Assembly: GCF_004328645.1 (NCBI RefSeq)
Contig: NZ_CP031395.1
Coordinates: 769,501-833,500 of the forward strand
Length of the DNA stretch: 64,000 nt
Direction of reading: 5' to 3'
Source: Hylemonella gracilis
GTDB lineage: Bacteria > Pseudomonadota > Gammaproteobacteria > Burkholderiales > Burkholderiaceae_C
This document shows, piece after piece, positions 6,779 to 60,628 of this stretch. The stretch's first letter is position 1; each line of letters starts with the position of its first letter. The notes below the pieces were generated by a model. It had not been told where the DNA came from, searched no databases, and saw only the letters and a list, made by a program, of their open reading frames with translations. Position numbers and translations under genes: made by a program.

Positions 6779-7624
6779 ATGAAGGTGCGGGTCTTGGGTT
6801 GTTCGGGCGCCATCGCGCGAGGTAGCCGCACCACTTCTTTCCTGGTCGACACGGACATCCTGGTGGATGCGGGCACCGGCGTCGGAGACCTGACAGTCGG
6901 TGAGATGTTGCGCATTGACCATGTCTTCATCACCCACGCACACCTGGACCACATCACGGCCCTGCCGCTGATGCTTGATGCCATGGGCGCACGACGGCGC
7001 GAGCCGGTGATGGTGCATGCCTTGCCCAAGACCATCGAAGCCTTGCGCGCGCACATCTTCAACAACCTCATCTGGCCTGACTTCAGTCGCATTCCCAGCG
7101 AGGCGGCGCCCTTCATGCGTTTCGCGCCCATCGAAACCGGCGAGGTGGTGGAAATTGGAGATCGACGTGTCGAGGCCTTGCCGGCCCAGCACACGGTGCC
7201 CGCCGTGGGTTACGCCGTGAGCGTGGACTCGGCTGGGCGCAAGGATGGCAGGGCAGCCACCTGGGTGTTCAGCGGTGACACCGGCCCCAATCCCGCGTTC
7301 TGGCGACGGGTCAATCAGTTGGACGATGTCCGCATGCTGGTGATCGAAACGGCTTTCAGCCGCCGGGAAAGCAAGCTGGCGGAGATCAGCCAGCATCTGG
7401 CGCCAGACACCCTGGCCCAGGAGCTGGCGCAGATCGCGCCTGGCAAGGACTATCCCATCTACATCACGCACACCAAGCCAACGGAAACGGTCCAGATCCT
7501 CGTGGAGCTGGGTGGACTCCAGAAGGATTCCGCCCAGAAATCTGGTGCGGCCGGCGCATTGGCGCGCGGCGGCCGTCTGTACGAATTGCATGGGTTGCAG
7601 GCCGGGCAAGAGTTCGATCTGTAG
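6779..7624 (+). CDS. Class II 3',5'-cyclic-nucleotide phosphodiesterase-like metallo-hydrolase
   Basis: This is a metallo-beta-lactamase-fold hydrolase of the PDEase_II type. Related enzymes cleave cAMP or cGMP using two metal ions. The 281-residue protein has the metal motif THAHLDHI (residues 52-59), a later histidine in PAQHTVPAVGY, the aspartate in FSGDTGPNPAF and the final histidine in ITHTKPTET. An MKVRVLGCSGAI start matches the family N-terminus and has GGAG ten bases upstream. No signal peptide is evident, so it is probably cytoplasmic. Cyclic nucleotide is the expected substrate by family, but related MBL proteins act on other phosphodiesters and specificity is not proven here. Confidence 0.75.
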   Translation: MKVRVLGCSGAIARGSRTTSFLVDTDILVDAGTGVGDLTVGEMLRIDHVFITHAHLDHITALPLMLDAMGARRREPVMVHALPKTIEALRAHIFNNLIWPDFSRIPSEAAPFMRFAPIETGEVVEIGDRRVEALPAQHTVPAVGYAVSVDSAGRKDGRAATWVFSGDTGPNPAFWRRVNQLDDVRMLVIETAFSRRESKLAEISQHLAPDTLAQELAQIAPGKDYPIYITHTKPTETVQILVELGGLQKDSAQKSGAAGALARGGRLYELHGLQAGQEFDL

Positions 7625-11112: not shown

Positions 11113-11868
11113 TCAGGCCGTGTGGCTGCTGGGCTTGCCGGAGGCGGCGTGGGCAGCCTCCCCGCCACGACGGGTGGCGGCGTACTTGCCGATCAGCAAC
11201 ACCAGCAACGCGCCAACCACGCTCGCGCCATATCGCAGGATGTCGGACTGCGGCAACTTGAACACCCATTGCCATTGGTCAGGGTTGGCGAAGGCCGGGT
11301 CGGTCACGAGCATGCCACCCGCAATCCAGCCGAGCAGCATGCCGCCGGCCGTGATGATGGCGGGGAAACGCTCCATCAACTTGATCACGAGTTGGCTACC
11401 CCAGACGATGATGGGGATGGAGATCAACAGGCCCAGGATGACCAGCAGCAGCGAGTGCTCTCCCGCGTTCTGGGCTGCACCAGCGATGGCGATCACGTTA
11501 TCCACGCTCATGACCAAGTCGGCCACGACGATGGTCTTGATGGCTGCGAACAACCTGTCGCTGGCGGCGATATTGCCGTGGCCCTCCTCGTCCGGCGCCA
11601 ACAGCTTGACGCCGATCCAAATCAGCAGCAGTGCACCGACGAGTTTGAGGAAAGGCAGGTTCAACAGCGTCATCGCGAAAGCGATCAGAACGACGCGCAG
11701 CACGATGGCACCCGCGGTGCCCCAAATGATGCCTTTGGTGCGTTGTGCTGGAGGCAGCCGGCGGCAGGCCAGCGCGATGACGACGGCGTTGTCGCCGCCG
11801 AGCAGGATATCAATGATGATGATCTGGCCCAGAGCGACCCAGAACGCAGGTGATGACAGAAACTCCAT
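11113..11868 (-). CDS. TerC family integral membrane protein (second copy)
   Basis: This is the second TerC/Alx-type inner-membrane protein of the window, with 251 residues. Its two signature segments are LGGDNAVVIALACRRLP near residue 24 and ADLVMSVDNVIAIAGAAQ near residue 116, with seven or so hydrophobic helices and a hydrophilic C-terminal tail. It starts 26 residues longer overall than the copy at 4877 and differs in the central loop (EEGHG instead of an acidic run). A GGAG site precedes the ATG. Ion specificity is unknown; manganese export is the leading idea for this family. Confidence 0.92.
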   Translation of the reverse strand: MEFLSSPAFWVALGQIIIIDILLGGDNAVVIALACRRLPPAQRTKGIIWGTAGAIVLRVVLIAFAMTLLNLPFLKLVGALLLIWIGVKLLAPDEEGHGNIAASDRLFAAIKTIVVADLVMSVDNVIAIAGAAQNAGEHSLLLVILGLLISIPIIVWGSQLVIKLMERFPAIITAGGMLLGWIAGGMLVTDPAFANPDQWQWVFKLPQSDILRYGASVVGALLVLLIGKYAATRRGGEAAHAASGKPSSHTA

Positions 11869-12252
11869 GAGGAACTCCGAGTTGTAGTTCGATTTACAAC
11901 CTGGTCAGCTCAGTCGATGGAGGAAGAACCCGTGCTCGCCGGTGGACCGGGAGCGCCGAGAACGCGCACGCTTCGACGAAACCTGACTCAGGTTCCAATC
12001 GAAGGTCTTGCTCGGCGTGGAGTGGTAAAGAATGTGCCCAACAAGCCGGAAGTCATGCTTCGTAATGACGACTTGTTGATGTCAACCTCGACGACGTCAT
12101 TTTTGACGCCTCCCTGTGCCGGGGTTGATGGGAGCTACTCCCCTTCGTGGAACGCATTAGACCACGGATCGACGCGGCCCCACAAGCGGGCCGGTATGAT
12201 GGAAAACTCTGCCTTATCAAGCTCCCCGTTTTCTTTTCCAGGCTACGCCCCC
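11869..12252. other. 384-base gene-free stretch with several inverted repeats
   Basis: This is the longest non-coding stretch of the window, between divergent terC and the DUF3717-DUF1289 gene. It holds GTTGTA-N8-TACAAC (11881-11900), the near-palindrome AACCTGACTCAGGTT (11980-11994) and a nested pair. In that pair AATGACG (12064-12070) faces CGTCATT (12095-12101) around GTTGATGTCAAC (12075-12086). The open frame that crosses it on the plus strand is compositionally unlike coding sequence. I see no tRNA or known riboswitch here. The nested pair ends in five T and could be a small-RNA terminator or a leader. Confidence 0.45.
11881..11900. promoter_or_regulatory. Inverted repeat GTTGTA-N8-TACAAC upstream of second terC
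   Basis: Perfect six-base arms with an eight-base centre lie only 12 bases before the terC ATG on the minus strand. The position would suit an operator or a 5'-leader hairpin. No regulator can be named. Confidence 0.3.
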
Positions 12253-40216: not shown

Positions 40217-41581
40217 ATGGTTGAGAAAAACAATTTCGGCTTCGCCGAACTCGAACAGTGGTTGAACGAACGCCGCGTGACGGAGATCGAGTGCCTGGTG
40301 CCCGATCTGACCGGCGTGGCGCGCGGCAAGATCCTGCCGCGCGAGAAGTTCACCGAAGACCGCGGCATGCGCCTGCCGCAGGTGACGGTGGCCATGAGCG
40401 TGACGGGGCAGTTTCCGGAGGATGGTCCCTATTACGAGGTCATCGATCCGACCGATCGCGACATGCAGCTGCGGCCCGATCCGAGCACCGTCCGCATCGT
40501 GCCCTGGGCCATCGACCCCACGGCCCAGGTCATTCACGACTGCTTTGACCACGATGGCAAGCTCATTCCCTACGCGCCGCGCAGCGTGCTGCGCAAGGTC
40601 TGCGATCTGTACGCCGCCGAAGGCTGGAACCCCGTGGTCGCGCCCGAGCTGGAGTTTTACCTGACGGCGCGCAACACCGACGCCAACACGCCTTTGCGTC
40701 CCCCGATCGGTCGCAGCGGCCGGGCCGAAACCTCGCGCCAGGCCTACAGCATCGACGCGGTCAATGAGTTCGATCCCTTGTTCGAGGACATCTATGCCTA
40801 CTGCGAGCAGATGGGCCTGAACGTGGACACGCTGATCCACGAGGTGGGCGCGGGCCAGATGGAGATCAACTTCTTTCACGCCCATCCCCTTGGCCTGGCT
40901 GACGAGGTGTTCTTCTTCAAGCGCACGGTGCGCGAGGCCGCGATGCGGCACGACATGTACGCCACGTTCATGGCCAAGCCCATCGCCGGCGAGCCCGGCA
41001 GCGCCATGCACATCCACCAGAGCGTGGTGGACAAGGCGGGACGCAATATCTTCAGCAAACCGGATGGCACGCCCTCGGACGCCTTCTACCACTACATCGG
41101 CGGCCTGCAGAAATACACGCCGGCCGCGATGGCGCTGCTCGCGCCCTACGTGAACAGCTACCGGCGCCTGTCGCGCTTCACGGCGGCACCCATCAACATC
41201 GAATGGGGTTATGACAACCGCACGGTCGGTATCCGCTCGCCGATTTCCACGCCCGAGGCTCGGCGCCTGGAGAACCGCGTGATCGGCGCCGATGCCAACC
41301 CCTACATCGCCATGGCCGTCACCCTGGCCTGCGGCTACCTCGGCATGAAGAACAAGATCAAGCCCAAGGACGAGATGAAGGGCGACGCCTACCTCACGCC
41401 CTTTTCCTTGCCGCGTGGCCAGAGCGATGCGCTGGACCTGTTGCGCAAGGAAACCGATCTGCACGAGGTGCTGGGCAAGGAATTCGTGACCGTATACAGC
41501 GAGATCAAGGAGATCGAGTTCGACGAGTACATGAAGGTCATCTCGCCCTGGGAACGTGAGCACCTGCTGCTCCACGTCTGA
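40217..41581 (+). CDS. puuA: Glutamine-synthetase-like gamma-glutamylputrescine synthetase
   Basis: This is an ATP-dependent ligase of the GS family that in this setting joins glutamate to putrescine. The 454-residue protein has the GS beta-grasp region with DLTGVARGKILPREKF and the catalytic-domain motifs PELEFYLTARN, EVGAGQMEINFFHA and MAKPIAGEPGSAMHIHQSV. NRTVGIRSP and the glutamate-binding ADANPYIAMA are also present. The tyrosine-adenylylation loop of true GlnA is not evident, consistent with a PuuA-type role. It is closer to PuuA than the paralogue at 52004. A CAGTGAGAAATTTTC leader gives a moderate ribosome site. Confidence 0.87.
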   Translation: MVEKNNFGFAELEQWLNERRVTEIECLVPDLTGVARGKILPREKFTEDRGMRLPQVTVAMSVTGQFPEDGPYYEVIDPTDRDMQLRPDPSTVRIVPWAIDPTAQVIHDCFDHDGKLIPYAPRSVLRKVCDLYAAEGWNPVVAPELEFYLTARNTDANTPLRPPIGRSGRAETSRQAYSIDAVNEFDPLFEDIYAYCEQMGLNVDTLIHEVGAGQMEINFFHAHPLGLADEVFFFKRTVREAAMRHDMYATFMAKPIAGEPGSAMHIHQSVVDKAGRNIFSKPDGTPSDAFYHYIGGLQKYTPAAMALLAPYVNSYRRLSRFTAAPINIEWGYDNRTVGIRSPISTPEARRLENRVIGADANPYIAMAVTLACGYLGMKNKIKPKDEMKGDAYLTPFSLPRGQSDALDLLRKETDLHEVLGKEFVTVYSEIKEIEFDEYMKVISPWEREHLLLHV

Positions 41582-41758: not shown

Positions 41759-43168
41759 ATGAATGCACGCATGAAACCTGTAGCGCAACGTACCACGGCC
41801 GAATGGCAGCAGGCCGATTCGGCCCACTACCTGCACCCCTTCACCGACCACACGGCGCTGGCGCAGAAAGGCGCGCGCATCATCACCCGCGCCGACGACA
41901 TCTACCTCTGGGACAGCGAGGGCAACAAGATCCTCGATGCGATGAGCGGTCTGTGGTGCGTCAATGTGGGGTATGGCCGCCAGGAACTGATCGACGCCGC
42001 GACGCAGCAGCTGCAGACGCTGCCTTTCTACAACAGCTTCTTCAACACCGCGACGCCCCCCGCCATCGAGCTGGCCGAGCTGTTGGCGCAGATCACGCCG
42101 CCGCAGTTCCAGCATGTCTTCTTCGGTGGTTCGGGCTCCGAAAGCAACGACACGGTCGTGCGTCTGGTGCGGCGCTACTGGGACCTGCAAGGCCAGCCCG
42201 AGCGCAAGGTCATCATCAGCCGCAGGAACGCCTACCACGGCTCCACCATGGCCGGTGCTTCGCTGGGCGGCATGCACGAGATGCACCAACAAGGGGGTCT
42301 GCCCATTCCCGATATCGTGCACATCGAACAGCCATTCTGGTTTGCACTGGGGCGAGATGAAAAGGGACTGCGACTGAGCCGTGACGATTTCGGCAAGAAA
42401 GCTGCGGGCTGGCTCGAAGACAAGATCAAGGCCATCGGCCCGGATCGCGTGGCCGCCTTCATCGGCGAGCCGGTGCAAGGCGCAGGCGGGGTGATCGTGC
42501 CACCTGCCACCTACTGGCCCGAGATCCAGCGCATCTGCGACCAATACGGCATCTTGCTGGTGTCTGACGAGGTGATCACCGGCTTCGGTCGCACGGGCCA
42601 ATGGTTCGGCTGTGAAACCATGGGCACGAAACCTGACCTGATGACCTTCGCCAAGGGCGTGACCAGCGGCTACATCCCCCTGGGGGGCGTGATGGTGGGC
42701 GAGCGCGTGGCCAGCGTTCTGGCCACGGGCGGTGAATTCGCCCACGGCTACACCTACAGCGGCCATCCCGTGGCCTGCGCGGTGGCCTTGGCGAACATCC
42801 GCCTGATCCAGCGCGAAGGGCTGGTCGAGCGCGTGCGCGAGGACACCGGGCCCTACCTGGCGCAACGGTATGCCGAGCTGGCCGACCATCCCCTGGTGGG
42901 TGAGGCCCAGACCTGTGGCCTCATGGCGGCCTTGCAATTGGTGCGTGACAAAACCAGCGGTTCGGCTTTCCCGTCTGAGCTGGCGGTGGGCATGATGTGC
43001 CGGGCGCACTGCTTCCGTGTCGGGCTCATCATGCGCGCCGTGGGCGACCGCATGATCATCGCGCCGCCGCTGTCCATGAGCCGCGCGCAGATCGACGAGA
43101 TGGTGGCGCTGATCCGCCGCTGCCTGGACCTGACCCTGGCCGAACTCCAGCAGAAAGGCGTTTTCTGA
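41759..43168 (+). CDS. spuC: Putrescine--pyruvate aminotransferase (SpuC-like, class III)
   Basis: This class III PLP aminotransferase has 469 residues and by similarity to SpuC moves an amino group from putrescine or cadaverine to pyruvate, a second entry route alongside puuA. Motifs are MSGLWCVNVGYGR, the PLP-phosphate segment GGSGSESNDTVVRLVR, VSDEVITGFGRTGQW (268-282) and the Schiff-base Lys299 in FAKGVTSGYIPLGG. An AAGGAAGG site stands before the ATG. Sequence alone does not separate putrescine from other omega-amines. The next gene starts 192 bases later behind a sigma-54 promoter. Confidence 0.86.
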   Translation: MNARMKPVAQRTTAEWQQADSAHYLHPFTDHTALAQKGARIITRADDIYLWDSEGNKILDAMSGLWCVNVGYGRQELIDAATQQLQTLPFYNSFFNTATPPAIELAELLAQITPPQFQHVFFGGSGSESNDTVVRLVRRYWDLQGQPERKVIISRRNAYHGSTMAGASLGGMHEMHQQGGLPIPDIVHIEQPFWFALGRDEKGLRLSRDDFGKKAAGWLEDKIKAIGPDRVAAFIGEPVQGAGGVIVPPATYWPEIQRICDQYGILLVSDEVITGFGRTGQWFGCETMGTKPDLMTFAKGVTSGYIPLGGVMVGERVASVLATGGEFAHGYTYSGHPVACAVALANIRLIQREGLVERVREDTGPYLAQRYAELADHPLVGEAQTCGLMAALQLVRDKTSGSAFPSELAVGMMCRAHCFRVGLIMRAVGDRMIIAPPLSMSRAQIDEMVALIRRCLDLTLAELQQKGVF

Positions 43169-43360: not shown

Positions 43361-44497
43361 ATGAAGCTGAATTTCCGTCCCTGCTCCGCGCTCGCCACGG
43401 TGGCCGCGGCCCTGCTGTCTTCGGCCACCCTGCTCTGGGCGGTGAGCGCCTCGGCCCAGGAAGCGAAGGTCTTGAACGTCTACAACTGGTCAGATTACAT
43501 CGGGGACGAAACGATCGCCAATTTCGAGAAGGAAACCGGCATCAAGGTCCGCTACGACAACTTCGACAACAACGAAATCCTGCATGCCAAGCTGGTGGCG
43601 GGCAAGACGGGGTATGACATCGTGGTGCCGTCGTCCAACTGGGCGGCGTTGCAGCTCACGGCTGGCCTGTTCACGCCGCTCGACCGCAGCAAGATCCCGA
43701 ACCTCAAGAACCTGGACGCCCCCCTGATGGCCCAGCTGGCCACGATCGACCCCGGCAACCAGTACGTCGTGCCCTGGTTGTGGGGATACACGACGCTGGG
43801 CATCAATGTGGACAAGGTCAAGAAGGCCATCGGCGGCGAACTGCCGGCCAATGTCTGGGACCTGCTCTTCAAGCCCGAGTACGTGAACAAGTTGAAGTCT
43901 TGCGGCGTTTCCGTGCTGGACTCGGCCGACGAAGTGGTGCCCGCCGCCCTGCACTACCTGGGCAAACCCCGGGTGTCCAAGAGCGCGGCCGACTACAACG
44001 CGGCCCTGGCCCTGCTCAAGAGCATCCGCCCCTCCGTCACGCTGTTCAGTTCCTCGGGGTACATCAATGACATGGCCAGCGGTTCCATCTGCCTGGCGCT
44101 GGGTTGGTCCGGTGACATCAACATCGCCCGTCAACGCGCCATCGACGGCAAGACCGGGCAAAACATCCAGGCCCTGGTGCCCTCCACCGGCGGGCTGCTG
44201 TTCTTCGACGTGATGGCCGTCCCCGCGGACGCCCCGCACATCGAGAACGCCTACAAGTTCATCGACTTCATCCTGCGTCCCCAGGTCAATGCCGGGCTGA
44301 CCAACAAGGTCTTCTACCCGAACGGCACCTATGGCGTGTCCAAGCCCTACATCAACCCGACGGTGGCCAACAACAGCACCGTGTTCCTCTCGGCCGCCGA
44401 CATGGGCAAGATGGTCGGCTACTCCGACCAGCAACTGACCAACGACATCCGCCGCAACCAGAACCGGGTCTACACCGCGTTCAAGACGGGCATGTAA
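43361..44497 (+). CDS. potF: Polyamine ABC transporter substrate-binding protein (PotF/SpuD-like)
   Basis: This is the periplasmic receptor for putrescine or spermidine. The 378-residue precursor has a signal peptide (hydrophobic residues about 10-32, probable cleavage after VSASA) and the PotF-type mature start EAKVLNVYNWSDYIGDETIANFEKETG. Ligand-site aromatic and acidic residues typical of the family appear in YNWSDYIG, SSNWAAL and ALGWSGDINIARQRA. It begins after GGAGG and is followed after 58 bases by the ATPase. Putrescine is the likeliest ligand from the adjacent pathway; spermidine cannot be excluded. Confidence 0.92.
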   Translation: MKLNFRPCSALATVAAALLSSATLLWAVSASAQEAKVLNVYNWSDYIGDETIANFEKETGIKVRYDNFDNNEILHAKLVAGKTGYDIVVPSSNWAALQLTAGLFTPLDRSKIPNLKNLDAPLMAQLATIDPGNQYVVPWLWGYTTLGINVDKVKKAIGGELPANVWDLLFKPEYVNKLKSCGVSVLDSADEVVPAALHYLGKPRVSKSAADYNAALALLKSIRPSVTLFSSSGYINDMASGSICLALGWSGDINIARQRAIDGKTGQNIQALVPSTGGLLFFDVMAVPADAPHIENAYKFIDFILRPQVNAGLTNKVFYPNGTYGVSKPYINPTVANNSTVFLSAADMGKMVGYSDQQLTNDIRRNQNRVYTAFKTGM

Positions 44498-44555: not shown

Positions 44556-45665
44556 ATGAGCAGCCCAAAGAGCAGCCATAACGCGAAATTCCTGCAGATC
44601 AAGAGCGTGGTCAAGGAGTTTGGCGGTTACAAGGCCGTCAACAATGTCAGCATCGATATCGCCAAGGGCGAGATCTTCGCCTTGCTGGGCCCCTCGGGCT
44701 GCGGCAAGACGACCCTGCTGCGCATGCTGGCGGGGTTCGAGACGCCCACGGCGGGCAGCATCGTGCTGGACGGGGTCGATCTCGTGGGGTTGCCGCCCTA
44801 TGAGCGCCCGCTCAACATGATGTTCCAGTCCTACGCCCTGTTTCCGCACCTGACGGTGTGGGACAACATCGCCTTTGGTCTGCGCCGCGAAGGCATGGCC
44901 AAGGCCGAGGTGGCCGAGCGGGTCGACGCCATGCTCAAACTGGTGCAACTGGGCAAGTTCGCCCAGCGCAAGCCGCATCAGCTTTCAGGCGGGCAGCAGC
45001 AGCGGGTGGCGCTGGCGCGCAGCCTGGCCAAGCAGCCGCAGTTGTTGCTGCTGGACGAGCCGCTGGGTGCGCTGGACAAAAAGCTGCGCGAGCAGACCCA
45101 GATCGAGCTGGTCAACATCATCGAACAGGTGGGCGTGACCTGCGTGATGGTCACGCACGACCAGGAAGAGGCCATGACCATGGCCTCGCGCCTGGCCGTC
45201 ATGAGCGAAGGGCGCTTCCTGCAGGTGGGTGCGCCGTCGGAAATCTACGAAACACCGCAGTCGCGCTTCGTCGCCGACTTCATCGGCAACGTCAACCTGA
45301 TGGAAGGCACGCTGGACGTCGACGACGCGGCCCATTGCGAGATCGCCTGTGCCGACGTGCGGCACTACGTGGGCCACGGCATCACCGGCACCGAAGACAT
45401 GCCGGTCACAGTCGCGCTGCGGCCGGAGAAGATCAAGCTCTCGCGTCAGGCACCCGAGGACACGCGCTACAACGCGGTCAAGGGCAAGGTCAAGGAATTG
45501 TCCTATTTCGGCGGCCTCACGATCTACCGCGTGAAGCTCGCCAGTGGCGCGATGCTCAAGGTCAGCATGGCCAACACGGAGCGGCATCCGGACGATATCT
45601 TCACCTGGGACGACGAGGTCTGGGCGCATTGGAGCCCGCAGGCCCAGGTCGTGCTCACGCAGTAA
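44556..45665 (+). CDS. potG: Polyamine ABC transporter ATP-binding protein
   Basis: This is the cytoplasmic ATPase of the polyamine importer, 369 residues. The Walker A motif GPSGCGKT is at 45-52, the Q-loop is in MMFQSYALFPH, the signature LSGGQQQR is at 142-149, and Walker B LLLLDEPLGALD follows. A C-terminal TOBE-type domain has VALRPEKIKL. This matches PotA/PotG-type proteins. It lies between the receptor and the first permease in one transcription unit. Confidence 0.94.
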   Translation: MSSPKSSHNAKFLQIKSVVKEFGGYKAVNNVSIDIAKGEIFALLGPSGCGKTTLLRMLAGFETPTAGSIVLDGVDLVGLPPYERPLNMMFQSYALFPHLTVWDNIAFGLRREGMAKAEVAERVDAMLKLVQLGKFAQRKPHQLSGGQQQRVALARSLAKQPQLLLLDEPLGALDKKLREQTQIELVNIIEQVGVTCVMVTHDQEEAMTMASRLAVMSEGRFLQVGAPSEIYETPQSRFVADFIGNVNLMEGTLDVDDAAHCEIACADVRHYVGHGITGTEDMPVTVALRPEKIKLSRQAPEDTRYNAVKGKVKELSYFGGLTIYRVKLASGAMLKVSMANTERHPDDIFTWDDEVWAHWSPQAQVVLTQ

Positions 45666-45698: not shown

Positions 45699-46673
45699 AT
45701 GAGCAGTGTCATCTCCCCCTCTTCCTCCACGCCCGACCCGGGCACGGGTTACGTGCGATTCCGCCCCGCCTGGTGGCGCGGACGCAGTGCAGTCATCGGC
45801 ATTCCCTATGTCTGGCTGCTGTTGTTCTTCTTCGCGCCTTTTCTGATCGTCCTCAACTACTCGGTGTCCGAGATGGGGGCGGTCATGGCCAAGGAGCTCA
45901 TGAACGTCTCGGACGGCGTGGTGAACCTGAGCTTCAAGTACGCCAACTACGTCTTTCTTTTCAGCGATGACCTATACGTCAAGGCCTATCTTTCCAGCCT
46001 GAAGTACGCGGCCGTCACCACGGCCTGCTGCCTGTTCATCGGCTACCCCTTCGCCTATTTCATGGCGCGGGCCCGCGCCACGGTGCAGCCCTTGCTGCTG
46101 ATGCTGCTGATGCTGCCCTTCTGGACCTCGTTCCTGCTGCGCGTCTACGCCTGGAAGGGATTGCTCAGCGAAGGTGGCTGGGGTGCGTCGGTGCTGAATT
46201 TCCTGGGCCTGGACCATCTGCTGATGGCGATGGGGGCCATCAACGCGCCGGGCATGTACCTGTACACGCCGTTTTCGCTGATCATCGGCATGACCTACAC
46301 CTACCTGCCCTTCATGATCCTGCCGCTCTACGCCAACTTGGCCAAGATGGATCTGCGCCTGCTCGAAGCGGCGGCGGACCTGGGTGCGACGCCCTGGACC
46401 GCGTTCTGGAAAGTGACCGTGCCCTTGTCCAAGGCCGGCATCATCGCTGGCTCCATGCTGGTCTTCATTCCCTGCATCGGCGAATTCGTCATCCCCGAAC
46501 TGCTGGGCGGCGCGCGCACGCTGATGATCGGCCGGGTGCTGTGGGACGAGTTCTTCAGCAACAACGACTGGCCCATGGCTTCCACCGTGGCCGTGGTGCT
46601 GGTGCTGCTGATCGTCGTGCCCCTGGCGATCTTCAATAAATACCAGGCCGAGGCCCAGGAGAAGGTGAAATGA
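45699..46673 (+). CDS. potH: Polyamine ABC transporter permease (PotH-like)
   Basis: This is the first inner-membrane permease of the importer, 324 residues with about six helices and a longer N-terminus typical of PotH/PotB. The ABC permease EAA loop lies near ADLGATPWTAFWKVTVPLSK (about residues 226-245). The preceding segment begins IGIPYVWLLLFFFAPFLIVL. It starts 33 bases after the ATPase stop and ends 76 bases before the second permease. Confidence 0.93.
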   Translation: MSSVISPSSSTPDPGTGYVRFRPAWWRGRSAVIGIPYVWLLLFFFAPFLIVLNYSVSEMGAVMAKELMNVSDGVVNLSFKYANYVFLFSDDLYVKAYLSSLKYAAVTTACCLFIGYPFAYFMARARATVQPLLLMLLMLPFWTSFLLRVYAWKGLLSEGGWGASVLNFLGLDHLLMAMGAINAPGMYLYTPFSLIIGMTYTYLPFMILPLYANLAKMDLRLLEAAADLGATPWTAFWKVTVPLSKAGIIAGSMLVFIPCIGEFVIPELLGGARTLMIGRVLWDEFFSNNDWPMASTVAVVLVLLIVVPLAIFNKYQAEAQEKVK

Positions 46674-46749
46674 GCGCAGCGCAGAGCAATACCGTGCCGA
46701 TTCGTCAAGCATGCCCGCTCCACAACGCGAAGCGCGGAGGTGTTTCACG

Positions 46750-47604
46750 ATGAGCAAAGCCTTGTTCAGTTCGCGCTTCGCCGCCGGATTTGGCAAGGGC
46801 TGGCTGGTCGCTGGCCTGCTGTTCCTGTACCTGCCGATGGTGGCGCTGGTCATTTTTTCCTTCAACAAGTCGCCCTTGCCGACCCACTGGGAAGGTTTCA
46901 CGCTGGACTGGTACGTCAAGCTGGCGAGGGACAAGGAAATCCTCAACGGCCTCTGGCTCTCGCTCAAGATCGCCTTCCTGTCGGCCTGCCTGTCCGTCAC
47001 CTTCGGCACGCTGGCGGCCTTTGCCTTGGTGAAGTACAGGCGCTTCCGTGGGCGCACCTTCTTCTCGGGCATGGTCAACGCGCCCCTGGTCATGCCCGAG
47101 GTCATCCAGGGCCTGTCCTTGCTGCTGCTGCTGGTGGCCGTGCAGCGCGCCATCGGCATCCCCGAGCGTGGCCTGGTCACCATCTTGCTTGGTCACATGA
47201 TGATGGGGCTGGCCTACGCGACCGTGGTCATCGCCGCGCGCTTGCAGGCCATCAACCCGCAGCTGGAAGAGGCGGCCATGGACCTGGGTGCCAAGCCCTG
47301 GCAGGTCTTCACCCTCGTCACGCTGCCTTCGATTTCTCAGGCATTGGTCTCGGCCTGGCTGCTGACCTTCAGCCTCTCGCTGGACGACGTGGTGATCTCC
47401 GCCTTTCTCTCGGGTCCCGGCGCGACCACCATGCCGCTCATCATCTTCTCGCGCGCGCGCCTGGGGCTCAACCCCACGGTGAACGCGGTGGCCACAGTGA
47501 TCATCGTCGTGGTGGCCATTTGTGTCACCGTGGCCAGCATCCTGGTGGCGCGCGCTGAAAGGCGACGCGCCGCGGAAGTCAGCGCGGCGTCGCGCAACGA
47601 ATAA
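46750..47604 (+). CDS. potI: Polyamine ABC transporter permease (PotI-like)
   Basis: This is the second inner-membrane permease, 284 residues with six predicted helices. The EAA loop lies in MDLGAKPWQVFTLVTLPSIS (about residues 177-196). The first helix contains GWLVAGLLFLYLPMVALVIFSFN. I chose the ATG at 46750 because GGAGG stands eight bases before it. An upstream in-frame start at 46711 lacks such a site. It closes the potFGHI unit; the outer-membrane gene follows after 108 bases. Confidence 0.93.
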   Translation: MSKALFSSRFAAGFGKGWLVAGLLFLYLPMVALVIFSFNKSPLPTHWEGFTLDWYVKLARDKEILNGLWLSLKIAFLSACLSVTFGTLAAFALVKYRRFRGRTFFSGMVNAPLVMPEVIQGLSLLLLLVAVQRAIGIPERGLVTILLGHMMMGLAYATVVIAARLQAINPQLEEAAMDLGAKPWQVFTLVTLPSISQALVSAWLLTFSLSLDDVVISAFLSGPGATTMPLIIFSRARLGLNPTVNAVATVIIVVVAICVTVASILVARAERRRAAEVSAASRNE

Positions 47605-47712: not shown

Positions 47713-49031
47713 ATGAGAGTCAACCACCGCACCATCCTCGCTCAAGTCGCCGCGCTCGCACTCGGCCTTGCGACGGGGGGACAGGTCGCCGCCCAGCAGA
47801 ATCGCATGGGTCTGACGCCCGACCAGATGCAGGACATCAACCGCACCATCATCAAGACCGAGGCGATGGAAGATGCGTGGGAGACCGCTGGCCTCAAGGG
47901 CCTCAAGATTTCGGGCTACATGGACCCGACCTACATCTACGACCAGAACGCCAATCGCGCGGGTTTCCAGTTCCTGAGTTCCGACTTCACCGGCTATTCC
48001 GACACGCCTTTCTTTGGCAATGCCACGATCGCCTTCGCCAAGGAAATGGACGATGGCACCCTCTATAACCTCCAGCTTCAGCCGCTGAACGGCAACATGG
48101 ACATCACGGCGGCCTCGGTGTCCATTCCCTTGTCGGATCGCCAGACCCGACTGATCGCGGGCAAGGTGCTGGACTGGTCGGGTTATGAATACGCGGATCC
48201 GGTGAAATCGTCCCTGATCACGCACAACCTGCTGTTCGATTTCACGCTGCCGGTGGCCTACACCGGTGCGGGGCTGGATGTTTCCACCGGCAGTTGGCAG
48301 CTGCGCACCATGCTGGCCAATGTGGACAGCGCCAAGGCGGCCGAGGGCAAGGGGCGCCGGCCTGGGTCTACCGCTTTGACTACTGGCCGGAAGAGTTCTG
48401 GGGCGTGGGTTTCGCGGGCTTGGTCGGCAAGGCCGACAACTGGAACAAAACCATTGACGACGATGGCGAAGTGGCCGACAAGAGCACAGCTGTGTTGTTC
48501 GAGATGGACGGCTATTACAACCGTGGCAACTGGACCTTGGGTGGCCAGCTCTCCTACGGGACGCAGAAGGACGCAGCCAATGACAGCGTCAGCGATGCCA
48601 AGTGGGCAGGCGCGTCCACCACGGTCGGGTACTTCGTCACACCGCGTCTGCAATTCCTGGTGCGTGGCGACTACATCAATAACGAGAAGAATGGTGGTGG
48701 GCTGTTCACCTACACCGGTTACGGGGAAGAAGTCGATCCTGACGGCACTCCCGACAGTGGCGATGAATATTGGCTGCCCGGTGCGGACGGCATCAATGGC
48801 ATAGGCATGGATGCGGCGGCGGCTGAGAAATGTGCTGCGGGTGGCGAGTGCAAGGGTGCCAACCGCTACGCTGTCTCTCTGGGCCTCAAGTACGCGCTCA
48901 ATCCCAATGCCTGGCTCAAGTTCGAGTACCGTTATGACGGTGCGAATCAGGACGTTTTCTACGACGTGAAGAACGACGAATACAAAAAGAACAACAACCT
49001 CGTTGGCGCCGCTCTCGTGGTGTTTTTCTGA
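47713..49031 (+). pseudogene. Outer-membrane porin-like protein resembling DUF3138, frameshifted at a G run
   Basis: This is a beta-barrel-like outer-membrane protein. A signal peptide ending near QVAAQQ precedes MGLTPDQMQDINRTIIKTEAMED, then GLKISGYMDPTYIYDQN. Long amphipathic strands follow to a terminal phenylalanine (ALVVFF), as in porins. As read, the first frame (from 47713) loses similarity after about residue 213 and runs to 48804. The continuation WVYRFDYWPEEFWGVGF lies in another frame to 49031. One extra G in the run 48351-48354 would join them into about 438 residues. Standing between the polyamine importer and puuC, it may be the matching outer-membrane channel, but this is inferred. 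DUF3138 membership is by recognition, not by search. Confidence 0.72.
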
Positions 49032-49114: not shown

Positions 49115-50617
49115 ATGAACAAGCCCGCACCCGATTGGCATGCCGTCGCCAAGACCGTCAGGATGGATGGCCGCGCGCTCATCAATGGCCTGCGTGTTGC
49201 GGCCGTCAACGGCGAAAGCTTCGCCAAGCATTCGCCCATCGATGGCCGGCCCCTGACCGAGGTCGCGCGTGGGCGTGAGGCCGATGTGGACGCCGCCGTG
49301 AAAAGCGCGCGCGCCGCTTTCGAGGAGAGCCGTTGGGCCGGCCAGGCGCCCGCCGCGCGCAAGAAGGTGCTGCGTGCTTTCGCCGACAAGCTGCTGGCCG
49401 CGCGTGAAGAGCTGGCGGTGCTGGAGTCGCTGGACATGGGCAAGCCCGTGCAACAGGCGCTGGCCGTGGACGTAGGCAGCAGCGCGCGCACCATCGCCTG
49501 GTACGCCGAGGCCGTGGACAAGATTTACGATGAGGTCGCGCCCACGCCACAGACCGCGCTGGCGCTCATCACGCGCGAACCCATGGGTGTGATCGGCGCC
49601 ATCGTGCCCTGGAACTACCCGATGCTGATGGCGTCGTGGAAACTGGGGCCCGCGCTGGCCGCGGGCAATTCGGTGGTGCTCAAGCCCAGCGAGAAATCCC
49701 CGCTGACCGCCCTGCGCATGGCCGAGCTGGCCTTGGACGCCGGTCTGCCGCCCGGCGTGTTCAATGTGGTGCCGGGCTACGGGCATGAAGCCGGTGAAGC
49801 ACTGGCCTTGCACATGGACGTGGACGCCATTGGCTTCACGGGCAGCACCCGCGTGGGCCGCCGCATGCTGGACTACGCAGGCCGCAGCAACCTCAAGCGC
49901 GTCTACAACGAACTTGGCGGCAAGTCGGCCTTTGTGGTCTTCGACGACTACGCCGACATCCAGCGCGCCGCCCAGACTGCGGCGGGCAGCATCTTCTACA
50001 ACCAGGGCGAGAGCTGCAACGCGCCCTCGCGCGTGTTCGTGCACGAGAAGATCGCCGACGCCTTCTGCGCCTGCCTGCAGGCCGAGGCGCCCAAGTACCA
50101 GCCGCTGGACCCGCTGTCCGGCAAGGCCGAGATGGGCGCACTGGTGGACGAAGGCCAGCTCAAGACTGTGCTCGGCTACATCGACGCCGGCGCCAGCGAA
50201 GGCGCGACGCTGCTGGCGGGCGGCAAGCGCGCGCGGGTGGAAACGGGGGGCTATTACGTCGAACCCACGGTGTTCATCGACGTGACCAATCAGATGAAAA
50301 TCGCGCGTGAGGAAATCTTCGGGCCGGTGCTGTCCGTGATTCGCTTCAAGACGGAAGAGGAAGCCATCCGCCTGGCCAATGATTCATCCTATGGCTTGCA
50401 GGCCAGCGTCTGGAGCGACAACCTCAGCCGCGCCCATCGCGTCGCGCGTGCCTTGCGCGCTGGCACCGTGCATGTGAACCAGTACGACGAAGACGACATC
50501 ACCGTGCCCTTCGGTGGCTACAAACAGAGTGGTAATGGGCGTGACAAGTCTTTGCACGCCTTCGACAAATACACCGAGTTGAAGACCACCTGGATCAGGA
50601 TAGATGCCCACCCCTGA
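49115..50617 (+). CDS. puuC: Aldehyde dehydrogenase, PuuC-like
   Basis: This is an NAD(P)-dependent aldehyde dehydrogenase of 500 residues which, by family and place, oxidises gamma-glutamyl-gamma-aminobutyraldehyde to gamma-glutamyl-GABA. The catalytic pair is Glu266 (in NELGGKSAF) and Cys301 (in YNQGESCNAPSRV). The cofactor loop has FTGSTRVGRRML, and the C-terminal PFGGYKQSGNGRDKSLHAFDKYTE is typical of PuuC-type enzymes. It starts right after the terminator of the porin-like gene, so it may have its own promoter. The ribosome site is weak. Confidence 0.9.
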   Translation: MNKPAPDWHAVAKTVRMDGRALINGLRVAAVNGESFAKHSPIDGRPLTEVARGREADVDAAVKSARAAFEESRWAGQAPAARKKVLRAFADKLLAAREELAVLESLDMGKPVQQALAVDVGSSARTIAWYAEAVDKIYDEVAPTPQTALALITREPMGVIGAIVPWNYPMLMASWKLGPALAAGNSVVLKPSEKSPLTALRMAELALDAGLPPGVFNVVPGYGHEAGEALALHMDVDAIGFTGSTRVGRRMLDYAGRSNLKRVYNELGGKSAFVVFDDYADIQRAAQTAAGSIFYNQGESCNAPSRVFVHEKIADAFCACLQAEAPKYQPLDPLSGKAEMGALVDEGQLKTVLGYIDAGASEGATLLAGGKRARVETGGYYVEPTVFIDVTNQMKIAREEIFGPVLSVIRFKTEEEAIRLANDSSYGLQASVWSDNLSRAHRVARALRAGTVHVNQYDEDDITVPFGGYKQSGNGRDKSLHAFDKYTELKTTWIRIDAHP

Positions 50618-50676: not shown

Positions 50677-50719
50677 GCCGCCACGTTTGGAAGTTAGCTT
50701 CTTGCAAGGAGTCATCAGC

Positions 50720-52003
50720 ATGAACCACTCGAAGAACGAACAGCTCATGGCCCGCAAGGCCGCCGCCACGCCGCGCGGTGTGGGCGTGATGGCCAGCTTC
50801 TTCGCCGAGCGCGCGGACAATGCCGAGCTCTGGGACGTGGAAGGCCGTCGCTTCCTGGACTTCGCGGGCGGCATCGCCGTGATGAACAGCGGGCATGGGC
50901 ACCCGAAGATTGTCCGGGCCATCCAGGAGCAACTCAACCGCTTCACCCACACCTGCTACCAGGTGGTGCCCTACGAGAGCTACATCGCCCTGGCCGAGAA
51001 GCTGAACCAGCTCACGCCTGGCACGCACGCCAAGAAGACCGCCCTGTTCTCCACCGGCGCCGAGGCGATCGAGAACGCCATCAAGATCGCGCGTGCCCAC
51101 ACCCGGCGCGCGGGCGTCATCGCCTTCAGCGGTGCTTTCCATGGCCGCAGCCTGTTCGCCGTGGCGCTGACTGGCAAGGTGGCACCCTATAAGCTCGGCT
51201 TCGGTCCCTTCCCGCCCGAGATTTACCACGCGCCCTACCCCGACGCGAATACGCCGTTGGAGGACGTGAAAAAGGCCGTCCACCACATCTTCAAGGCCGA
51301 CATCGAGCCCAGCCGGGTCGCGGCCATCGTTTTCGAGCCCGTGCAGGGTGAAGGCGGCTTCAACGTGATCCAGGCCGAGGCCGTGCGCTGGTTGCGCCAA
51401 CTCTGTGACGAGCATGGCATTGTGTTGATCGCCGACGAAATCCAGAGCGGCTTCGGCCGCACCGGCACCTTGTTCGCCATGGAGCAGTTCCTGGCGCAGA
51501 CCGGCGTGGTGCCCGACCTGATGACCATCGCCAAGTCCTTGGCCAACGGCGTGCCCTTGTCGGCGGTGACGGGCAAGGCCGAGATCATGGATGCGCCCGC
51601 GCCGGGTGGCCTGGGCGGTACTTATGCGGGCAACCCGCTGGCCATCGCCGCCGCGCACGCCGTCATCGACCTGATGCGCGATGAGCAGTTGCCCCAGCGC
51701 GGCAAGATGTTGGGCGATCGCCTCAAGGTCACGCTGGACCAGATGCGCCAGGAGGTGCCCCAGATCACGGACGTGCGCGGCCTGGGGGCCATGGTGGCGG
51801 TCGAGTTTCGCAAGACCGATGGTTCAGCGGACGCCGAGGTCACGAAGAAGGTGCAGGCCGAGGCCTTGCAACGCGGCCTGATCCTGCTGACTTGCGGCGT
51901 GGACGGCAACGTCATCCGTTTCCTCTTTCCGCTCACCATCCCCGAAGCGCACTTCGAGGAAGCCTTGGGCATCCTGCGCGAGGCGCTGAAAGCCGCCCGC
52001 TGA
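50720..52003 (+). CDS. gabT: 4-aminobutyrate aminotransferase (GabT/PuuE-like)
   Basis: This class III PLP aminotransferase (427 residues) moves the amino group of GABA to 2-oxoglutarate, giving succinate semialdehyde. Motifs are FSTGAEAIENAIKIAR, FSGAFHGRS, LIADEIQSGFGRTG (236-249) and Lys272 in TIAKSLANGVPLSA. The GabT-type GMLFVFELVxx part reads LGAMVAVEF. The ATG at 50720 follows AAGGAG. The GS-like gene starts on the very next base after its stop, a sign of cotranslation. Confidence 0.9.
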   Translation: MNHSKNEQLMARKAAATPRGVGVMASFFAERADNAELWDVEGRRFLDFAGGIAVMNSGHGHPKIVRAIQEQLNRFTHTCYQVVPYESYIALAEKLNQLTPGTHAKKTALFSTGAEAIENAIKIARAHTRRAGVIAFSGAFHGRSLFAVALTGKVAPYKLGFGPFPPEIYHAPYPDANTPLEDVKKAVHHIFKADIEPSRVAAIVFEPVQGEGGFNVIQAEAVRWLRQLCDEHGIVLIADEIQSGFGRTGTLFAMEQFLAQTGVVPDLMTIAKSLANGVPLSAVTGKAEIMDAPAPGGLGGTYAGNPLAIAAAHAVIDLMRDEQLPQRGKMLGDRLKVTLDQMRQEVPQITDVRGLGAMVAVEFRKTDGSADAEVTKKVQAEALQRGLILLTCGVDGNVIRFLFPLTIPEAHFEEALGILREALKAAR

Positions 52004-53332
52004 ATGCACGCCGACCATCTGGCCCTGCAGGAGCGCCTGGCCGCCGAGGGCGTGCACACGCTGCTTGCGCAGTTCACCGATATCCACGGGGTTGCCAAGG
52101 GTAAGTTCGTTCCGCTGGCGCAGCTGTCGACCCTGGTCGACACCGGCGCCGGTTTCGCGGGTCCGTCCATCGCGGGCACGGGTTTGCCGCGCACCGGCCC
52201 ACGCTCCGAGTACTACGGCCGCGCCGATCTGTCCACCGTCGCCCCGATGCCCTGGATGCCGGGCTACGCGCGCGTGGTCTGCGACGGCTACGTGGCGAAT
52301 GCACCCTTCGACGCCTGTCCACGCCAGGTCCTGCGCCGCCAGCTGGCGCGGCTGAGCGAACGCGGCTGGCATCTGCAAACCGGCATCGAGCCCGAGTTCT
52401 TCCTGTTGCGCAGGACGGAGGAGGGCGGCATAGCCGCCGCCGATGCGCAAGACGGACTGGACAAACCTTCCTACGACCTCAAGAGCCTGCCGCGCCAGCG
52501 TGATCTGCTCAATGAGTTGAGTTATGGCCTGCAGGCATGCGGTCTGGACGTGTTCCAGACCGACCACGAGGATGCGCACGGCCAGTACGAGCTGAACTTC
52601 CTGCACGCCGACGCATTGCGCAGCGCGGACAACCTCATGCTGTTCAAGCTGGCCGCGCAGGCGATCGCGGAGCAATATGGGGTGTTGTTCTCCATGATGC
52701 CCAAGCCCTTCGCCAATCAGCCGGGGAGTGGGATGCACTTCCACGTGTCACTCTGGCAAGGTGAAGGACAAGGTGCACACTGCCTGTTCGACGATGAAAA
52801 GCAGATGGGGCATTTCATCGCGGGCGTGCTCGCGCATTCGACGGGTCTGGCCGCCTTGGCCGCGCCCACCGTCAATTCCTACAAGCGCCTGGTGGTGGGC
52901 GAGTCACTGTCCGGCACCAGTTGGGCGCCGGCCTACATCGCCCACGGTCCGAACAACCGGACGGCGCTGGTGCGTACCTTGCCCGGCCGGTTTGAATGGC
53001 GCCTGCCCGACGCGGCGGCCAATCCTTACCTCGCCACGGCGGGCCTGGTCGCGGCGGGTCTGGATGGCATGGAACGACAGCTTGATCCCGGTGTGGCCTG
53101 CACCGATGACCTGTTTGAACTGTCGCTGGTGCAATTGCGTGAGCGCCAGATCGGTCTATTGCCGCAGAGCCTGGGCGACGCCGTCGATGCGTTCGAGGCC
53201 GACAACGTGCTGCGCTCGGCCCTGGGCGAGACCTTGAGTGAACAGTTCGTCCGGCTCAAGCGCGCGGAGTGGATCGAGTACGCCCGCCATGTCAGCGATT
53301 GGGAAGTCCAGCGCTACGCCACCTTGTTCTGA
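52004..53332 (+). CDS. Second glutamine-synthetase-like ligase (GlnT/type III-like)
   Basis: This is a GS-fold ligase of 442 residues with AQFTDIHGVAKGKFVPL, GIEPEFFLLRR, EDAHGQYELNFLHADAL, PGSGMHFHVSLWQG and a C-terminal AAANPYLATAGLVAAGL. It belongs to the GlnT/GS-III-like branch that often works on substrates other than ammonia, such as amines or methylamine. It starts on the base after the gabT stop (ATGA overlap absent, zero spacing), implying a functional link. It differs clearly from puuA at 40217, so the locus has two ligases. Substrate unknown. Confidence 0.84.
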   Translation: MHADHLALQERLAAEGVHTLLAQFTDIHGVAKGKFVPLAQLSTLVDTGAGFAGPSIAGTGLPRTGPRSEYYGRADLSTVAPMPWMPGYARVVCDGYVANAPFDACPRQVLRRQLARLSERGWHLQTGIEPEFFLLRRTEEGGIAAADAQDGLDKPSYDLKSLPRQRDLLNELSYGLQACGLDVFQTDHEDAHGQYELNFLHADALRSADNLMLFKLAAQAIAEQYGVLFSMMPKPFANQPGSGMHFHVSLWQGEGQGAHCLFDDEKQMGHFIAGVLAHSTGLAALAAPTVNSYKRLVVGESLSGTSWAPAYIAHGPNNRTALVRTLPGRFEWRLPDAAANPYLATAGLVAAGLDGMERQLDPGVACTDDLFELSLVQLRERQIGLLPQSLGDAVDAFEADNVLRSALGETLSEQFVRLKRAEWIEYARHVSDWEVQRYATLF

Positions 53333-53369
53333 GCCCTCGCTCTTTCACCTCCTCTCCGATTTCTCCATC

Positions 53370-58144: not shown

Positions 58145-59002
58145 TCATGGATGACGCTCCTCGCGCAGCGGGACTTCGTCGCCCGACTTGATGCGCTGGC
58201 GCTCCTCGGGTGGCAGGCGGCTGTTCGCCGGCACGAGCACGACCTCGGGCATCTGGCGGTGCTTTTCCATCGCCTCGATCAAGAGGCCCACGGCCACGGC
58301 GGCGGCGATGGCCACCAGGATGTTGAGTTTGAGTGGCAGCGCGAAAGCGGCCACCGCTGCCGTGGCGGCCACGCCCGCCGATATCCAGCTCGCGCGGTCG
58401 AACAGCATGGACAGCAGCACGCCCAGCAAGGCCAGCGTGCCCGCGAAGCCCAGGCCCCAGGACAAGGGAACCTCGTTCGCCAGCAGGATGCCGGTGATGG
58501 AAAAGCCCTGCCAGGCCAGCCAGTTCGTGGATGCCGCGCCGCAGAAAAAAGGCAGCTGGTCGGGCACCGGGCGCTGGTCCGGATAGCGCTTCATGAAGGC
58601 GGCGAAAATCACGTCACCGCTGAAATAGGCCAGCCACAGACGCTGGCGGCGCGGTAGCCAGGAGAAGTAGGTACGCCAGAGGCTGCTGAAGATCACGAAG
58701 CGCAGATTCACGCAACTGGCCGTGAGCCAGACTACCCACAGCGGCGCGCCCGCCATGATGAGTGGCAGCGTGGCCAGCTGAGCGCTGCCAGCGTACACCA
58801 GCAGGGACATGAAGACCGCCATCCCGACGCCCATGCCGCTCTTGACCATGGCCACGCCCGTGACCAAGCCCCAGGCACCCACGCCCAGCGCGGTGCCGAA
58901 CATCTCGCGCATGCCGTCGCGGAAAGCGGGATGGCGTGTGGTGGTTGCAACCGTCTGGCGCAGGCGACGGACGGTGGACGAAGAATCGGCGTGAGAACGC
59001 AT
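58145..59002 (-). CDS. azlC: AzlC family ABC-independent amino acid exporter subunit
   Basis: This is the large subunit of a branched-chain amino acid exporter (AzlC/YgaZ). The 285-residue protein has about eight hydrophobic segments, including LGVGAWGLVTGVAMVKSGMG, MSLLVYAGSAQLATLPLI and LTASCVNLRFVIFSSLW, typical of the family. The C-terminal tail is hydrophilic. The ATG at 59002 lies two bases past the frame-corrected fmt stop, suggesting coupling to fmt. Family role is export of leucine-type amino acids or azaleucine. Confidence 0.9.
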   Translation of the reverse strand: MRSHADSSSTVRRLRQTVATTTRHPAFRDGMREMFGTALGVGAWGLVTGVAMVKSGMGVGMAVFMSLLVYAGSAQLATLPLIMAGAPLWVVWLTASCVNLRFVIFSSLWRTYFSWLPRRQRLWLAYFSGDVIFAAFMKRYPDQRPVPDQLPFFCGAASTNWLAWQGFSITGILLANEVPLSWGLGFAGTLALLGVLLSMLFDRASWISAGVAATAAVAAFALPLKLNILVAIAAAVAVGLLIEAMEKHRQMPEVVLVPANSRLPPEERQRIKSGDEVPLREERHP

Positions 59003-59004
59003 GG

Positions 59005-60092
59005 TCAGGTGGCACCCAGCAGGGCACCGATGCGCAGGTGCGTGCCGCGCAGGAAGTTGGCTGCGGTCAGGCGCTTGCCGCCTGCGCGTTGCAGTTCTGT
59101 GATCTGCAGCAGGCCTTGCCCGCATTGCACGGTGATGCCTTCGGCGCCGAGCGCGATAACCTGGCCGGGAATCGGCTCGGCTTGCGCAGGGGGGCCTCGG
59201 TCGTGACGGCTGCCTGCACTGTGTGAGCCCGCCAGAGTTTGAGCACCTCGGCGCCGTGTTCGCCATCGAGCAGGGTCTGCGCACCGGGCGCGGGGTTGAA
59301 GGCATGGATGCGCCGCGCGATCAATACTGCGGAGTTGGACCAATCGATCTGGGCCTCGGCCTTGTCGATCTTGTGTGCGTAGGTAATGCCTTGTTCGGGC
59401 TGCGGCGTGGCGCGCAGTTCCCCGCGCGCCGCCAAGGCCAGGGTGCGCACGATCAGTTCGCCGCCCAAGGCGGCCAGCTTGTCGTGCAGGCTGCCGGTGC
59501 TGTCGTCCGGAGTGATGGGCAGGCGCTCCATGAGCAGCATGTTGCCCGTGTCCAGGCCGGCATCCATCTGCATGATGGTCACGCCGGTTTCGCGGTCACC
59601 GGCCTCGATGGCACGGTGGATGGGTGCCGCGCCGCGCCAGCGCGGCAACAACGATGCGTGGATGTTCAGGCACCCGAATTTGTGGGCCCCCACGCTTCCC
59701 GCTGCGCGTGGTTCGCTGCCCCCCGAGGGGGCGCTTTGCGCATTCGCGCCTTGGGACGGCCCGGCGGCGCTCATGCCATCGAGGACCCACTGCGGCAAGA
59801 TCAGGCCGTAAGCCGCGACCACCATCACGTCGGCCTGTGCCGCTTCCAGCGCGGCACGGGCGGCCGCCGCGTCTTCGGGGTACTTGCCGTCCAGGCGCAG
59901 GCTGCGCGGCTGCGCGACGGGGATGCCGTGCTCCAGCGCGAACTGCTTGACCGGCGAGGCCTGTAGTTTCATGCCTCGTCCTGCGGGCCGGTCAGGCTGG
60001 GTCAGCACCAAGACAATCTCGTGCCCCGCCTGGTGCAGGGCCTGCAGAGCCACCCGGGCGAACTCGGGCGTCCCCGCGTAAACAACTCTCAT
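59005..60092 (-). pseudogene. fmt: Methionyl-tRNA formyltransferase with internal insertion, frameshifted near the 3' end
   Basis: Fmt formylates initiator methionyl-tRNA. The N-terminal part is clear: [30 protein letters not shown] and [18 protein letters not shown]. Residues 106-138 (59679-59777) are a low-complexity insertion of about 30 residues where other Fmt proteins have about five, made of repeat-like DNA. The frame then holds until about residue 301. From there similarity continues in another frame to a stop at 59005 ([31 protein letters not shown]). One extra G in the run 59189-59194 would repair it, giving about 361 residues. Since fmt is nearly essential, a base-call error is likely; if real it would cost about 60 residues. 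Confidence 0.85.
59690..59732. repeat. Repeat-like palindromic DNA inside fmt
   Basis: CCACGC faces GCGTGG (59690-59711), then GCCCCC faces GGGGGC (59718-59732). The second stem resembles the CCCC/GGGG part of the dispersed repeat at 41687 and 50633. This lies in the stretch coding for the extra residues of fmt, suggesting that an intergenic palindrome entered the gene in frame. Confidence 0.5.
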
Positions 60093-60103
60093 CGAATTCC
60101 CGT

Positions 60104-60628
60104 TCAGGCCCGCGCGCCTTCGCGCTCGTTTTCGCGTTGCAGTTTCTGCATCTTGGTCTTGATGCGGTTGCGCTTGAGCGGGGACAGGTACTCGACGAAG
60201 ACCTTGCCCATCAGGTGGTCCATCTCATGCTGGATGCAGATGGCCAGCAGGCCCTCGCACTCGACCGTGCGGGACTGACCCTCACCGTCCAGGGCGCGCA
60301 CATGCACGCGCTCGTGCCGCTCCACGCCGTCGTAGATGCCGGGCACGGACAGGCAACCTTCCTCGTTGACCTTCGTTTCGGGGCTGGCCCAGACGATTTC
60401 CGGGTTGATGAAGACCAGCGGCTGCTCGCGTCCCTCGGACACGTCGATGACGACCAGCCGCTCGTGCACATTGATCTGGGTGGCGGCCAGGCCAATGCCA
60501 TTCATGTCGTACATGGTGTCGAACATGTCGGCAATGAGCTGTTTGATGCGCGCATCCACGGCCTGCACGGGCTGTGCCACGGTGTGCAGGCGGGGATCTG
60601 GGTAAGTCAGGATGGGCAGCAAAGCCAT
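60104..60628 (-). CDS. def: Peptide deformylase
   Basis: This metal-dependent hydrolase removes the formyl group from new proteins. The 174-residue protein has all three motifs: GIGLAATQ (44-51), EGCLSVP (90-96) with the metal ligand Cys92, and QHEMDHL (133-139) with the catalytic glutamate and two ligand histidines. The ATG at 60628 begins [14 protein letters not shown]. fmt starts 11 bases after its stop, the usual def-fmt operon. It is divergent from dprA. Confidence 0.97.

Follow-up and report, generated by a model that had tools for sequence, protein, structure and literature searches.

The window analysed here, a stretch of 64,000 nucleotides from Hylemonella gracilis NS1 (contig NZ_CP031395.1, positions 769,501 to 833,500 of the forward strand), carries among its genes for polyamine uptake and breakdown a porin-like gene of the DUF3138 family, which the deposited assembly presents in two pieces. 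The gene lies on the forward strand and starts with an ATG at 47713, from which the frame is open to 48804 (363 residues), with Pfam similarity that stops at about residue 205-213. A second frame is open over 48189-49031, has its first start codon at 48294 and ends in phenylalanine, the terminal residue described in a sequence-only reading of this window. The change of coding frame falls at a run of four G (48351-48354), where the assembly, in DNA alignment, is one base short relative to the intact relatives. The N-terminal part of the gene (47713-48353) has a start that appears signal-like by eye, followed by a helix and the first barrel strands, as placed by a structural model of the intact protein of H. 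gracilis ATCC 19624; the C-terminal part (48354-49031) continues in the other frame as far as the terminal phenylalanine.

Each part alone exceeds the gathering cut-offs of two Pfam families, PF11336 (DUF3138; cut-off 27.3) and PF07642 (BBP2, putative beta-barrel porin-2, OmpL-like; cut-off 26.2): the N-terminal part scores 78.4 and 32.1 bits, respectively, and the C-terminal part 58.1 and 53.9 bits. The shift of similarity between frames at 48351-48354, first noticed in the sequence-only reading, is thus borne out, and the family search that it proposed leads to DUF3138 and to an outer-membrane family with either half. Moreover, the ratio of nonsynonymous to synonymous substitution rates (dN/dS) against ATCC 19624, each half being taken in its own frame, is 0.113 for the N half and 0.069 for the C half; four neighbouring genes range from 0.044 to 0.083 in the same comparison. 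Since each half passes the Pfam cut-offs and both frames are under selection, the frame change is confirmed as a feature of the deposited sequence and is not due to chance. The synonymous divergence (dS) of the C half (48357-49028) is twice that of the N half (0.96 versus 0.47 against ATCC 19624), possibly reflecting either a mosaic origin or fast-evolving loops.

The closest relatives of this gene are intact. In ATCC 19624 (426 residues, 92% amino acid identity to the N half) and Niagara R (405 residues, 76% identity) it is a single open frame, and the G run is absent from both. A further intact protein from the protein database (P0005, 439 residues) is 92% identical over the N half, and its long C-terminal loop is nearly identical by eye. 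A joined product of about 438 residues, as had been proposed, is plausible because these nearest intact relatives have 405-439 residues; the 120 homologues listed of 2033, in a search restricted to proteins of 0.55-1.75 times the query length, have 374-498. A second assembly of the NS1 strain was not found, since the best listed match to the N half of the window's gene is the 92% just mentioned.

The split had been ascribed either to a base-call error or to a phase-variable switch for uptake. The location of the frame change at the G run is what slippage toggling polyamine uptake would produce, but a phase-variable gene usually requires a long repeat tract. This run has only four bases, a commonplace length for G/C runs (1174 in 245 kilobases (kb) of the NS1 genome); it is kept in neither of the two relatives aligned as DNA (0/2), contrary to what a conserved switch would show; and an equal defect occurs at many unrelated G/C runs, as described below. 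We therefore consider phase variation highly improbable. Still less probable is a programmed ribosomal frameshift that joins the two frames. Selection on both halves would suit such a mechanism, but the intact relatives need none, and the zero-frame codons at the site (AAG GGG CGC) do not, by eye, form the X XXY YYZ heptamer that is the pattern of frameshift sites. Both possibilities were rejected on the basis of the run length, its non-conservation and the wider pattern of shortfalls.

Within 12.5 kb around the porin gene, the porin site is the sole uncompensated frameshift common to the comparisons with both relatives. The comparison of the porin with ATCC 19624 also gives an insertion of 8+1 bases (sum 9), and the gaps at 53339-53359 and 50708 in the alignment with the relatives adjoin gene starts. 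That the frameshift stands alone locally was considered as an argument for a real mutation, but this was overturned by a wider survey of shortfalls at G/C runs. For this survey NS1 was compared with Niagara R in three sets of alignments of at least 80% identity, which add up to 485.8 kb; clean single-base length differences were counted, G/C runs being those of 4 or more and overlapping sites being counted once. NS1 is one base shorter at 22 G/C runs (15 in orthologous frames) and Niagara R at only 4 (1 in frames), which favours the base-call error of the two earlier explanations. At A/T runs, NS1 is shorter at 4 and Niagara R at 9, and outside runs the single-base differences are balanced (33 with NS1 shorter versus 34). 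Orthologous frames hold 15/22 of the NS1 G/C shortfalls and 24/84 of the other single-base indels. The porin and fmt sites are themselves absent from these run counts because their flanks fail the clean-alignment filter.

The same one-sidedness is apparent at the level of genes. With all pieces required to have at least 82% identity, 8 of 178 frames of Niagara R have a split counterpart in NS1 (the terC-like one being doubtful), and none of 176 does in the reverse direction; the porin is not among the eight because it lies below the 75% identity filter of that survey. A one-direction survey by the same rule gave further NS1 splits, some of them short or at gene starts. The split genes include uvrA, fmt, flgG and those for an acyl-CoA dehydrogenase, a response-regulator protein, a membrane transport protein and a methyltransferase. 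Further shortfalls occur within flhA, in a gene for a D-Ala-D-Ala carboxypeptidase, and close to the beginning of cheZ and the end of hemE. In the window itself, the frames of fmt (methionyl-tRNA formyltransferase; 59002-60107, reverse strand) part near 59187-59199 at a G run; genome-wide, the best fmt copy is fragmented, its end lying in a different frame, and a weaker formyltransferase exists alongside. A whole-genome profile search for flgG found two pieces and no match over the cut-off. One uvrA copy is in pieces, and the genome has a second, longer UvrA-like frame besides; this is an open frame of 2053 residues with two UvrA-like halves in tandem (G000:C1:1076922-1082861). The start region of the terC-like gene (window 11116-12157, reverse strand) is in other frames than in Niagara R, which may be a start artefact.

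The way in which this genome was produced offers a ready explanation. According to the available portion of its publication, NS1, a soil isolate, was sequenced on the PacBio RS II with P6-C4 chemistry, assembled with HGAP3 and annotated with Prokka; that portion names Illumina for RNA sequencing only and does not mention short-read polishing (PMC9948732). Applied to Streptomyces albus SM254 at 262-fold coverage, this combination of chemistry and assembler is reported to have left 205 indels, nearly all at G or C homopolymers, until the genome was polished with Illumina reads (PMC4832174). The error class is the same, and the densities are similar: one short run per 22 kb in the sampled parts of NS1 versus one per 35 kb in S. 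albus SM254. The two cases differ in that the indels of the latter were corrected with Illumina reads. Long-read errors are reported to be mainly short indels associated with homopolymers, but the nanopore assembly of that report was affected at A/T runs more often than at G/C runs (PMC12007338); the G/C bias of NS1 therefore resembles that of the PacBio assembly and is not simply what any long-read method would give. Because the shortfall at G/C runs is one-sided, has no counterpart in an excess at A/T runs or elsewhere and matches the published error of this chemistry and assembler, we conclude that the DUF3138 gene is probably an ordinary, intact porin gene and that its split reflects a residual error of the consensus, the assembly being one base short here as at some other G/C runs. 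As a split gene or as a switch it is very probably an artefact, and we infer that the reads hold the full G run.

Several observations weigh against the consensus-error explanation. The shortfalls are uneven, with 16 in 245 kb, 1 in 123.5 kb (the surroundings of rpoB and the ftsZ cluster) and 5 in 117 kb (chi-square p=0.051), and a real loss under selection would equally give such unevenness. Some of the frames counted as genes may not be real ones, chiefly where the identity is close to 80%. There is no clear case of a broken gene that is strictly essential: the product of fmt is shortened by roughly 62 residues at its end and that of hemE by roughly 22, and cheZ is affected only close to its start. 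Finally, mutS is split and has no match over the family cut-off genome-wide; its frames part at a C run, as judged by eye without a relative (about 6900-6930 of stretch L130; about 3,496,900 of G000:C1). This raises the possibility that NS1 is a mismatch-repair mutant whose lineage has truly lost bases in its G/C runs, in which case the inactivation of the porin gene would be real and recent. The mutS split and the scarcity of shortfalls around rpoB and the ftsZ cluster are in keeping with such a mutator, and mutL, which is intact, speaks neither for nor against it. However, no excess is seen at A/T runs, of which the aligned Niagara R sequence offers 328 of 5 or more (versus 629 G/C runs). 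The losses are one-sided, their rate and G/C specificity are those of the published residual error, and many conserved genes would have to be broken at once (uvrA, fmt, flgG, mutS and the flhA site). A mutator thus seems rather unlikely.

With the split attributed to the consensus, a pseudogene that is probably false drops out, as does a false claim of phase variation. This also provides a warning about a reference genome whose sampled parts, relative to Niagara R, lack a base at roughly one G/C run in every 22 kb; in view of these shortfalls, further genes that NS1 seems to have lost should not be taken as signs of genome streamlining without recourse to the reads.

The surroundings of the porin gene are consistently those of a polyamine locus, all of it on the forward strand, and co-transcription of its pot genes may be presumed from gene order and strand. 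Upstream lie a glutamine-synthetase-like gene, a candidate gamma-glutamylpolyamine synthetase (40217-41581; PF00120, 361 bits; no NCBIfam equivalog over its cut-off), and a class-III aminotransferase gene (41759-43168; PRK07480, 782 bits, cut-off 510), which we take to be spuC-like. These are followed by genes for a potF-like periplasmic polyamine-binding protein (43361-44497; SBP_bac_8; best NCBIfam match PotF with 392 bits, below the equivalog cut-off of 636), a potG-like ATPase (44556-45665; best match PotG, below its cut-off, and over the 355.6 cut-off of TIGR01187, polyamine ATP-binding cassette (ABC) transporter ATP-binding protein, with 415 bits), a potH-like permease (45699-46673) and a potI-like permease directly 5' of the porin gene (46711-47604), both permeases matching PF00528 and having PotH and PotI, respectively, as best NCBIfam matches below cut-off. 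With a binding protein, an ATPase and two permeases in what would be one operon, the gene content is that of a PotFGHI-type system. Downstream are genes for a puuC-like aldehyde dehydrogenase (49115-50617; PF00171, 562 bits; best NCBIfam match PuuC, 662 bits, cut-off 850), a second class-III aminotransferase with an uncertain start codon (50687-52003; PF00202, 418 bits) and a second glutamine-synthetase-like protein (52004-53332; TIGR03105, 498.5 bits, cut-off 469.6). The placement of the porin gene between potFGHI and puuC in the sequence-only reading therefore holds by best match.

Pfam states no function for DUF3138. Both halves of the window's copy, split as it is in the assembly, belong to this family, and several of the intact relatives are labelled DUF3138 family protein by their sources; the best scores of this clade against the family model are 72-151 bits, versus 425-960 bits for typical members. 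The intact protein of ATCC 19624 was modelled with AlphaFold2 (mean predicted local distance difference test (pLDDT) 77.7, predicted template modelling score (pTM) 0.74); in a fold search with this model, the listed matches are filled by outer-membrane barrels, mostly porins, the best of them being OprP and OprO of Pseudomonas aeruginosa (Z 27.3 over 306-320 residues). The DUF3138 protein is accordingly predicted to form a 16-strand, porin-type barrel in the outer membrane and to have a helix at its N terminus, and this modelled barrel, taken with the terminal aromatic residue, suggests an outer-membrane porin. The porin-like identity given to the gene earlier agrees with both this fold and the DUF3138 and BBP2 matches. 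OprP and OprO are porins for phosphate and pyrophosphate. Although they have the closest predicted fold by Z, their identity to the DUF3138 protein in the fold alignment is just 14-15%, a sequence search of the PDB gave nothing useful and no sequence-level match to either, and they differ from the DUF3138 protein in that the operon of the latter appears to serve polyamines and its intact relative is acidic (isoelectric point (pI) 4.55). The DcaP channel of Acinetobacter baumannii likewise differs in substrate and operon.

The association with polyamine transport extends well beyond this window. Among 35 stretches, including the window and made up of DUF3138 neighbourhoods and three named loci, 31 contain full-length DUF3138 genes, 32 in all. 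Every one of these (32/32) follows on the same strand, at a distance of 108-543 bp measured between match ends, a gene that is potI-like in 24 cases and potF-like in 8, so that a porin gene behind polyamine ABC genes gives DUF3138 a testable function. The four stretches with partial matches (L082-L085, from genomes G058, G112, G068 and G170) lack both a full-length porin and any pot gene. The count covers matches over the cut-off together with the one below it in G170, and leaves aside two C-terminal fragments over the cut-off (G520, G524). As background, 33 stretches from NS1 and Niagara R only contain no PotF-like and two PotG-like genes. Within the genus, 3 of 26 genomes, NS1 among them, have DUF3138, and the same three have a PotF orthologue of at least 90% identity; in the Burkholderiales, a match is present in 25 of 399 genomes and exceeds the cut-off in 17, and a phylum-wide search found no full-length DUF3138 beyond the genomes already included. 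On two annotated Burkholderia plasmids, the order is the same: genes for a binding protein and two permeases precede DUF3138, behind which come a flavin adenine dinucleotide (FAD) oxidoreductase gene and, at a greater distance, one for an aldehyde dehydrogenase; one of the two annotations lists the ATPase.

The proposal that this gene encodes the outer-membrane channel of the polyamine locus is supported by the predicted barrel and by the linkage to pot genes, and the wider DUF3138 family merits a direct test. We consider it reasonably probable that the DUF3138 proteins are outer-membrane channels dedicated to polyamines, encoded directly behind potI or potF and providing the outer-membrane step of PotF-type uptake in the Burkholderiales. 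Polyamines would cross the outer membrane through the DUF3138 barrel and be caught in the periplasm by PotF; PotGHI would then carry them across the inner membrane for degradation by the Puu/Spu-type enzymes of the locus, namely those of the glutamine-synthetase-like, aminotransferase and PuuC-like kinds. Against this, the substrate is assigned purely from linkage, and the invariant charged columns of the aligned proteins are mixed, acidic and basic, rather than plainly acidic. An argument for polyamine selectivity from charge failed for this reason; the aligned proteins are acidic overall (median pI 5.12 for 33 proteins with the first 28 residues removed).

Alternatively, DUF3138 could be a general porin, or could couple the ABC transporter to its ATPase, as the authors of a Chromobacterium subtsugae study predicted. 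That study finds DUF3138 and the polyamine ABC genes next to it upregulated in the quorum-sensing-positive early stationary phase, with the largest increase for DUF3138 (PMC12114271). Polyamines are reported to be bound by E. coli porins (PMC11998418), and putrescine to pass through a general porin, OmpM1 of Veillonella (PMC10628300). However, coupling to a cytoplasmic ATPase does not suit a protein that is predicted to be an outer-membrane barrel and ends in phenylalanine, and adjacency to pot genes in every case would not be expected of a general porin. We regard these alternatives as possible but somewhat doubtful. A literature search of titles and the beginnings of abstracts, using polyamine-porin and polyamine-channel phrases, found no report of an outer-membrane polyamine porin.

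In genome G082 the DUF3138 gene at the equivalent operon position looks decayed, with frames of 216 and 103 residues and the middle parts missing (L080:8970-10095). Genome G411, finally, has two DUF3138 genes within one pot cluster, one behind potF and the other behind potI (L061:8881-15157).
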